Shown: positions 13,551-17,646 of the stretch, one piece after another
How the letters are laid out: the number at the start of each line of letters is the position of its first letter
How positions within the stretch are numbered: the stretch's first letter is position 1
Notes under the pieces: generated by a model
What the model saw: the letters and a program-made list of their open reading frames with translations, nothing else
What the model was told of the DNA's origin: nothing
The model's database searches: none
From: Aeromicrobium choanae
Lineage (GTDB): Bacteria; Actinomycetota; Actinomycetes; Propionibacteriales; Nocardioidaceae
Direction: 5' to 3'
Assembly (NCBI GenBank): GCA_029265505.1
Contig: JAJUII010000004.1
Location: forward strand, 1 to 37,480
DNA: 37,480 nucleotides
Translations under genes and position numbers: made by a program

Positions 13551-14336
13551 GTGTCCTGGCGTCCCCGGCTCGTGGCGCTGGACGTCGACGGCACCATCGT
13601 CGATCACCGCAACCAGCTCAGCCCCGCCGTCAAGGAGGCGATCCTCGCTCTGCGTGAGCAGGGCGTCGCGATCGTGATCGCCACCGGTCGAGCCGTGCCG
13701 GGCGTCTACGACGTGCTGGACAAGCTCGGATTCCGTGAGGGGCTCGGCGTGGCGAGCAACGGGTCGGTCGTCTTCGGGGTCGACCCGTTCGAAGTCGTGC
13801 AGACGACCACGTTCGACGCGCGCGAGGCGGTGCGCCGCGTGCTGGAGCGGGTCCCCGAGGCGCTCGTCGCCGTCGAGGAGGTCGGCGTGGGATACCGGGT
13901 GAACCGGGCCTTCCCCCAGGGCGAGATCACCGGCGAGATCATCCTCGACGAGGTCGAGCGGATGGTCTCCCAGCCGGTCACTCGTGTCGTCGTGCGCGCG
14001 CCCGACCACGACCGCGAGGAGTTCTCCACCCTCGTGGAGGACCTCGGGCTGGACGGCACCAACTACTACATCGGCTACACCGCCTGGCTGGATCTCGCCC
14101 CGGAGGGCGTCTCCAAGGCCTCCGGCCTCGAGACGGTCTGCCGCGTCATGGGGCTGACCGCCGCCGACGTCCTCGCCGTGGGCGACGGCCACAACGACCA
14201 CGAGATGCTCCAGTGGGCCGGCCGCGGCGTCGCCATGGGCCAAGCCCCCGACGAGGTCAAGGCCGTCGCCGACGACGTCACCGCCCCCGTCGAGGCCGAC
14301 GGCCTCGCCCTCGAACTGCGCCGCTGGCTGGATTGA
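13551..14336 (+). CDS. Cof-type HAD-IIB family hydrolase
   Basis: LVALDVDGTIVDHRNQLSPAVKEAI, VIATGRAVPGVYDVLDKLG, VLAVGDGHNDHEMLQWAGRGVAMGQAPDEVKAVADDVTAP. Confidence 0.93.
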   Translation: MSWRPRLVALDVDGTIVDHRNQLSPAVKEAILALREQGVAIVIATGRAVPGVYDVLDKLGFREGLGVASNGSVVFGVDPFEVVQTTTFDAREAVRRVLERVPEALVAVEEVGVGYRVNRAFPQGEITGEIILDEVERMVSQPVTRVVVRAPDHDREEFSTLVEDLGLDGTNYYIGYTAWLDLAPEGVSKASGLETVCRVMGLTAADVLAVGDGHNDHEMLQWAGRGVAMGQAPDEVKAVADDVTAPVEADGLALELRRWLD

Positions 14337-14338
14337 AG

Positions 14339-14415
14339 TTTCCCCGGTTAACCGGGGAAACCAACTCTTCACGAGGGAAACTTCCCTCGTTCCGTGCCAG
14401 AGAACCTCGTGAAGT
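14339..14415 (+). repeat. Left 77-bp composite inverted repeat (IR-L) flanking the AbiEi-like gene
   Basis: TTTCCCCGGTTAACCGGGGAAACC...GGAAACTTCCCTC...AGAACCTCGTGAAGT; matches the reverse complement of 15467-15543 in 63/77 positions without gaps. Confidence 0.9.
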
Positions 14416-15392
14416 CACGGGATCGTCGTGCGTCGTGGTCGACCGTAGAGGCGGCGCGACTGCTCCATCGCGGCGCGAATCCTCTGGCAGGTCGCTTTCG
14501 GCGAATTGAGATCGGCATAGATCCAGCGGCTCATTCCCCGAGGGATCTCGCGAATGCGATCTTCGCGTCGCTTCTCCTCCACCAGCACCTGGCCCAGGTC
14601 GGCCCCCGAGTACGGGTTCAGACGGCCGTACTTCACCAAGCCGTCGAACTCGCCGCAGTGCCAGAAGTCCTCCCAGTCGAAGTCGACCCGCCCGAGCAGC
14701 CCGCCGTGCCCGTCGAAGAAGTCGACCTGCATACGCGGGATCGGCAGACCGCCCATGCGGAACATGTAGACCGACCGGACCTCCCCCACGGATTCGCACT
14801 CCGGCGCCGCCCACATCAACGCGAGGCGGACCTTCGCGACGCCCGGCCAGCGGGACATGGCATCCAGACGGTCGAGGAGCTCGGCCTCGTCGGCGCCTTG
14901 GCGGAGGAGGTGCGACACCTGAACCATCCCGGCTTCGGTACCGGCGATCGAGGCGGTCTCCAGGACCGCCCGAGACGGGATGACCAGTCGGTGACCGTCG
15001 ACCTCGACCACGTCCTCCTCCGGCAGCCGACCGCCGTGGTGGACGACCTTCGCCTCGGTTCGCGCGGTCGTCCGGTCCGGCCTGGTGACGTGCACCGTCT
15101 CCAGGTCGAGCCCGAACGAGACGCCGGTGTGGATGACGGCCGCCGAGTGATGGCTGATGACGACGTCCGCCGGCAGCTTGTCCTGAGCGGCGAAGGCGAG
15201 GATGCGGTGCCGCTCCTCGGGCGACAGGCCCTCATGCCCGCGCGGAGCGTAGGTCCCCGGGCGCAGACGCACGAGCACCTTGGACCTGATCGCGTCGCGG
15301 ATCTGACGATCGTCGAAGCCGAGGTCGAGGAGGTCGGGGCGTCGGATGTATCCGCCGCGGTGCTGCGCGAGTGATGCGAAGAAGTCGTCCAT
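14415..15392 (-). CDS. Solitary AbiEi-like (type IV TA antitoxin-domain) protein with C-terminal DUF559/PD-(D/E)XK-like region
   Basis: N-term MDDFFASLAQHRGGYIRRPDLLDLGFDDRQIRDAIRSKVLVRLRPGTYAPRG (AbiEi-type wHTH); C-term VDFDW...CGEFDGLVKYGR...EEKRREDRIREIPRGMSRWIYADL, resembling DUF559/Vsr-like. The ORF can extend to a GTG at 15488 inside the right repeat. Confidence 0.78.
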   Translation of the reverse strand: MDDFFASLAQHRGGYIRRPDLLDLGFDDRQIRDAIRSKVLVRLRPGTYAPRGHEGLSPEERHRILAFAAQDKLPADVVISHHSAAVIHTGVSFGLDLETVHVTRPDRTTARTEAKVVHHGGRLPEEDVVEVDGHRLVIPSRAVLETASIAGTEAGMVQVSHLLRQGADEAELLDRLDAMSRWPGVAKVRLALMWAAPECESVGEVRSVYMFRMGGLPIPRMQVDFFDGHGGLLGRVDFDWEDFWHCGEFDGLVKYGRLNPYSGADLGQVLVEEKRREDRIREIPRGMSRWIYADLNSPKATCQRIRAAMEQSRRLYGRPRRTTIP

Positions 15393-15466
15393 CCGACGAG
15401 CGTGATCGCGATGCCGATGCGCCTGAAGGCCCGCTTTCGCTCCTGTGGACGAGCCGATCGGTGTCC

Positions 15467-15545
15467 ACTTCGCGAGGTTCTTTGTCACTGAGTGAGGGAA
15501 GTTTCCCCCGCTCAGTGGCGGTTTCCCCGCTTAACCGGGGAAACC
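15467..15545 (-). repeat. Right composite inverted repeat (IR-R) flanking the AbiEi-like gene
   Basis: Reverse complement reads GGTTTCCCCGGTTAAGCGGGGAAACC...GGAAACTTCCCTC...AGAACCTCGCGAAGT, colinear with IR-L. Confidence 0.9.

Positions 15546-15678: not shown

Positions 15679-17646
<1,968 letters not shown>

Follow-up and report, generated by a model that had tools for sequence, protein, structure and literature searches.

A single AbiEi_4-type gene between composite palindromic repeats in Aeromicrobium choanae, and its repeat-bracketed relatives in other actinobacteria

The element and its enclosed protein

The window, which is the whole 37,480-nucleotide stretch of Aeromicrobium choanae DNA that was analysed, contains one strong inverted repeat, the sole one returned by a repeat search. 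Its arms are 78 nt long and 82% complementary, are separated by 1051 nt, and match each other in blastn with an E value of 3e-19. Each arm combines a 24-nt palindrome (GTTTCCCCGGTTAACCGGGGAAAC) with a ∼32-nt hairpin and a tail, and a single gene, of AbiEi_4 type, is enclosed by the pair. The features are as follows (coordinates, strand, description).

13551–14336, plus strand: left flanking gene, HAD hydrolase (PF08282); the repeat begins 2 nt past its stop
14338–14415, no strand: left composite repeat, with palindrome 14338–14361, hairpin at about 14365–14396 and tail to 14415
14415–15392, minus strand: 325-amino-acid protein with an AbiEi_4-type winged helix-turn-helix (wHTH) and a probable PD-(D/E)XK-like domain (Pfam AbiEi_4, E=8e-8; start placed by homolog alignment)
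14523–14795, minus strand: putative PD-(D/E)XK nuclease core, residues 200–290 (29-member alignment; profile match to paralogs that match DUF559 and REase_MTES_1575)
15243–15371, minus strand: AbiEi_4 winged-helix DNA-binding domain, residues 8–50 (Pfam domain match)
15467–15544, no strand: right composite repeat, the inverted copy, with tail 15467–15484, hairpin at about 15486–15517 and palindrome 15521–15544
15679–17646, plus strand: right flanking gene, acetyl-CoA synthetase (acsA; gene annotation)

The earlier note had reported the arms as 77 bp with 63 of 77 positions identical. The pair is confirmed at the slightly greater length given above, and the blocky conservation, the palindromes, the distance of 2 nt from the HAD stop and the position relative to the AbiEi stop codon are as that note had claimed. 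The stop codon (complement TCA, 14415–14417) has one base in common with the left repeat. Because homologs align from MDDFF, the likely start is the ATG at 15392 rather than the GTG at 15488, which falls within the right repeat; the right repeat therefore lies entirely upstream of the gene.

AbiEi_4 is the sole Pfam match of the enclosed protein. The wHTH is found in 27 of 29 aligned members, and the N-terminal half is also recognised by AbiEi models of PADLOC. In the C-terminal part the alignment contains the invariant motifs GE..R, D-F-x-W, GEFDGxxK and EKxRED (the F and W positions are nearly invariant), among which a catalytic-type D...ExD/K motif of the PD-(D/E)XK kind is present, with D237, E248, D250 and K254 invariant in all 29 members. 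Divergent paralogs in which an AbiEi domain is fused to a second domain match Pfam DUF559 and REase_MTES_1575, and these align with the subfamily over its full length (hhalign probability 99.9, E 9e-32) with D..ExDG in register. The subfamily itself gave no DUF559 match, direct comparison with Vsr gave no match, no solved structure was matched, and a single-sequence AlphaFold model reached a pLDDT of 40. The PD-(D/E)XK-like label is used because of the motifs and the paralog profile links, by which the protein is probably a wHTH joined to a PD-(D/E)XK-like nuclease.

Association of the gene with inverted repeats

Flanking repeats were sought by blastn at 48 subfamily loci in 49 genomes of the genus. 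Inverted repeats of 71–188 bp bracket the gene at all 48, with the downstream arm no more than 60 nt from the stop codon and a full unit of 1.18–1.44 kb. None of 155 control genes was bracketed in the same test (E<1e-8), the lone positive being the window gene itself. Two congeners (G006 and G069) carry the same gene inside the same repeat type as the window's own genome (G000), at other loci. Beyond the genus, bracketing was found for 25 of 26 strong homologs elsewhere in the class, which bears out what the earlier note had named as support, paired repeats that enclose this gene family. The signal weakens with homolog distance: strong flanking repeats accompany 20 of 42 remote homologs and, among the divergent AbiEi/DUF559 paralogs, about 15 of 24. 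Within the class, the 29-member profile matches 93 of 148 genomes, representing 56 of 81 genera. Searches of viral contigs and phages returned no relatives of the protein, and the plasmid homologs comprise three remote ones in Tsukamurella, one with flanking repeats. As a separate observation, three divergent AbiEi-type paralogs (L056, on C112 of G000, L183 and L187) are flanked by inverted short tandem repeats (e.g. CCTGTGCCGAGTCGTCAACC and CCGCCGACGAGTCACGCAGAT) with no composite hairpins.

The arms are strongly structured. Compared with shuffles, they fold with a median z of −4.6 (86% below −2), and controls with a median of −0.1 (4% below −2). Of the proposed base pairs, 93.7% form across 27 aligned copies taken from G000 and G006, and 59 cells are changed on both sides compared with 21.9 in shuffles, a value reached in 0 of 500. 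Note that the copies are related, so that the shuffle control overstates significance; sliding the partners, a control in which relatedness is retained, gives 0 to 12 doubly changed cells. Repeat sequence varies among lineages, and the hairpins are kept through compensatory change.

Changes in repeat sequence go along with changes in gene lineage. Palindromes of the GGTTTACC type reach at least seven counts in 22 of 37 gene-carrying genomes and in none of 12 genomes without the gene (Fisher P 0.0002), although the element's own arms are part of these counts and were also the basis for the search pattern, which biases the test towards a positive result. The TTACGGAG type occurs in three of the 49 genomes, namely in G002 and G033, where it is carried on the arms of their elements, and as one match in G031. 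Gene-less G060 retains three palindromes that are the same as in its relative G018, and these look as relics would.

Dispersed repeats and presence or absence among relatives

Every genome examined has its own repeat type scattered elsewhere in copies that enclose no gene. In G000, whose 2.3-Mb assembly is incomplete, 12 further gene-less sites were found, four of which (on C12, C110, C97 and C79) are inverted doublets. The copies occupy short intergenic gaps, typically a few nucleotides past a stop codon and often between convergent genes. The number in G006 is similar, and the palindrome there is a variant, TGTTAACA in place of GGTTAACC. When the palindrome was sought in 85,462 species genomes, a collection that may omit the window's own genome, six additional loci emerged, all from a single Marmoricola metagenome assembly.

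In Marmoricola sp. RYN_217 (L136:6963-7427), two GTTTCACTGGTTAACCAGTGAAAC palindromes with long hairpins lie in the same orientation 440 nt apart. They flank a gene with a LigD_N phosphoesterase domain, a suspected second cargo, beside a ketol-acid reductoisomerase gene.

The earlier note had treated the repeats as the bounds of a single-gene element, a view that has to be modified in that most repeats are dispersed gene-less elements. They occur genome-wide but in specific association with the gene, and the refuting case named in that note, genome-wide repeats unrelated to the gene family, does not apply.

At the HAD–acsA site, six close relatives are without the gene, and HAD and acsA are 137–243 bp apart. 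In G006 the site holds a solo repeat whose TGA-A-GTTTCCCC junction is the same, apparent half-palindrome remnants are seen in G007 and G069, and G018, G060 and G061 have no recognisable remnant. The reverse test used the joined flanks of gene-bearing copies as query. The gene-bearing copy of G018 is missing from G060, G061 and G006, that of G069 from G061 and G006, and that of G006 from G069; several gene-less repeat sites of G000 are also empty in relatives. The closest junction comparison, TCC-TGACTCAGTC in G060 versus TGA-[1.2-kb unit]-TCAGTC in G018, provides an example in which an element and a clean empty site can be compared directly within a close pair. No target-site duplication is visible at this junction, the other comparisons being too diverged, and no excision intermediate was seen. 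Solo repeats and clean empty sites, both of which the earlier note had proposed to look for, occur among relatives, at the HAD–acsA site and at the sites of other copies, and its description of a discrete ∼1.2-kb unit amid housekeeping genes is supported.

Some of these sites contain other repeats. At the site of the G069 element, G060 and G018 (L258 and L259) carry a hairpin repeat from a different family (GAGATTTGCTCC...GGAGCAAATCT) that resembles repeats beside a paralog in L181, and some gene ends look like multi-family hot spots. At the site of the C97 doublet of G000, G061 has a different palindromic element (L253, G061:C2:63896-64610) and G007 has none.

Movement of the gene is less frequent. 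Within the window's own clade, G000, G006 and G069 each have it at a different locus, and other members lack it. It is usually single-copy, rarely multicopy, and often at one fixed locus. Both flanks are shared by 95 of 1128 locus pairs, from which it follows that several lineages kept the gene in place while protein and repeat diverged. The claim of a mobile unit therefore stands for occasional relocation of the gene-bearing form, but the gene is rarely multicopy and it is mainly the repeats that turn over. Dispersed gene-less repeats together with an often fixed gene imply that it is chiefly the repeat that moves, as in REP/RAYT systems, and the gene-bearing form only occasionally; the conserved position of many gene-bearing copies means that self-movement of the protein is not required.

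Interpretation and comparison with known systems

The closest parallel is with REPtrons and the RAYT-REPIN system, in which a usually single-copy gene has inverted palindromic flanks, gene-less repeats are dispersed between genes, some as inverted doublets, and inheritance is mostly vertical (PMC3116915, PMC3733652). RAYTs are single-copy and REP-flanked, with a phylogeny largely congruent with that of the species (PMC3116915). The window element resembles REPtrons in its inverted palindromic flanks and its dispersed extragenic copies, partly inverted doublets, and its family resembles RAYTs in low gene mobility. It differs in the enclosed protein, which has an AbiEi_4 wHTH and a PD-(D/E)XK-like domain instead of the Y1 HUH enzyme related to IS200/IS605, and in its repeats, which are longer composites of palindrome, hairpin and tail (70–120 nt). 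The 27 aligned copies have no constant GTAG/CGTC tag beside the palindrome of the kind present in REPtrons. No Y1_Tnp/RAYT transposase (PF01797) was found in G000 by a search that was positive in five control genomes, and the REPtron-like layout without a transposase that had been proposed from the window is upheld to that extent.

TIRtrons, in which RAYT-like genes lie between long TIRs, encode tyrosine transposases (PMC3733652). They share with the window element a single gene between long inverted repeats able to form repeat families, but the window element encodes no tyrosine transposase. A classical insertion sequence is different in that no DDE, Y1 or serine transposase lies between the terminal repeats here, where the only Pfam match is AbiEi_4. 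The DUF559 and REase_MTES_1575 proteins share nuclease-type motifs with the enclosed protein by way of the divergent AbiEi-fused paralogs; no link of either family to repeats was found in the open-access literature.

We consider the element to be probably a gene-bearing copy of a palindromic repeat together with a protein dedicated to it, an arrangement that parallels a RAYT gene and its REPs although the enzyme is unrelated. The repeats may be mobilised by the AbiEi_4/nuclease-like protein. For such a mechanism, the wHTH would recognise the palindrome, either as duplex or as extruded hairpin, and the PD-(D/E)XK-like domain would cut at it. The freed hairpin unit could then be copied into new gene-end sites by host repair or replication, with mostly the short repeat moving and occasionally the whole 1.2-kb unit. 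Protein bound upstream of its own gene would also permit self-regulation.

AbiEi antitoxins bind inverted repeats in their own promoter. The protein could be a DNA-binding regulator of palindromes and nothing else (an AbiEi-like autorepressor or nucleoid-type factor), with repeats that spread passively or through another enzyme and serve as gene-end terminators or binding sites. The N-terminal AbiEi_4 domain, the PADLOC matches and the location of repeats beside stop codons, frequently between convergent genes, all fit this. Autoregulation would account for the upstream palindrome, but not for the inverted copy right past the stop in nearly all homologs; it also leaves the lineage-matched dispersed copies unexplained, and the nuclease-type residues are invariant in 29 of 29 aligned members. 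We regard this explanation as unlikely, although it deserves more weight than those that follow.

That the gene is cargo of a MITE-like transposon, with an unrelated transposase acting in trans on the repeats, is a distinctly improbable alternative. The repeats resemble MITEs in being short, non-coding, dispersed, hairpin-forming and present or absent between relatives, and the gene-bearing unit has occasionally relocated. However, the same gene family is enclosed across dozens of genera in which the repeat sequences have completely changed, no target-site duplication is visible at the G018/G060 junction, and no parental transposase was found in G000, where the genome-wide search covered the Y1_Tnp family.

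It is very doubtful that this is a type IV toxin-antitoxin or phage-defence gene placed between repeats by happenstance. The AbiEi-like N-terminal half is what such a reading would predict, but repeats flank the family almost without exception, and the gene differs from AbiEi antitoxins in its extra C-terminal nuclease-like domain. The toxin-antitoxin reading was rejected at the locus itself, where the neighbours are the HAD hydrolase and acsA and there is no AbiEii nucleotidyltransferase partner. That two dispersed repeats came by chance to surround an unrelated gene, an event for which ∼14 repeat sites in a 2.3-Mb assembly would allow a pair 1.2 kb apart at an estimated level of roughly 1%, is refuted by the same gene and repeat type at other loci in G006 and G069 and by the 48 of 48 bracketed loci, and is given virtually no credence.

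Under the preferred reading of a repeat with its own dedicated protein, the recurrence of this gene with changing repeats across many actinobacteria points to selfish elements of an undescribed family that lacks a classical transposase. No earlier description of AbiEi or DUF559 together with palindromes, inverted repeats, Vsr or mobile elements was found in open-access papers, to which the claim of novelty is confined. What sets the element apart is the REPtron layout without the defining enzyme and with an unrelated protein instead; the case for novelty would be weaker if the protein does not mobilise the repeats. The chances appear evenly balanced that these elements form a large actinobacterial class in which a wHTH plus PD-(D/E)XK protein, unrelated to known transposases, spreads composite palindromes, as a second independent invention of the REP/RAYT type with its own transposition chemistry. 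If this is true, many actinobacterial annotations of “AbiEi family antitoxin” or DUF559 type would gain a repeat-associated role, there may be a mechanism of mobility without a DDE, HUH, tyrosine or serine recombinase, and the origin and spread of extragenic palindromes outside the proteobacteria would become testable.
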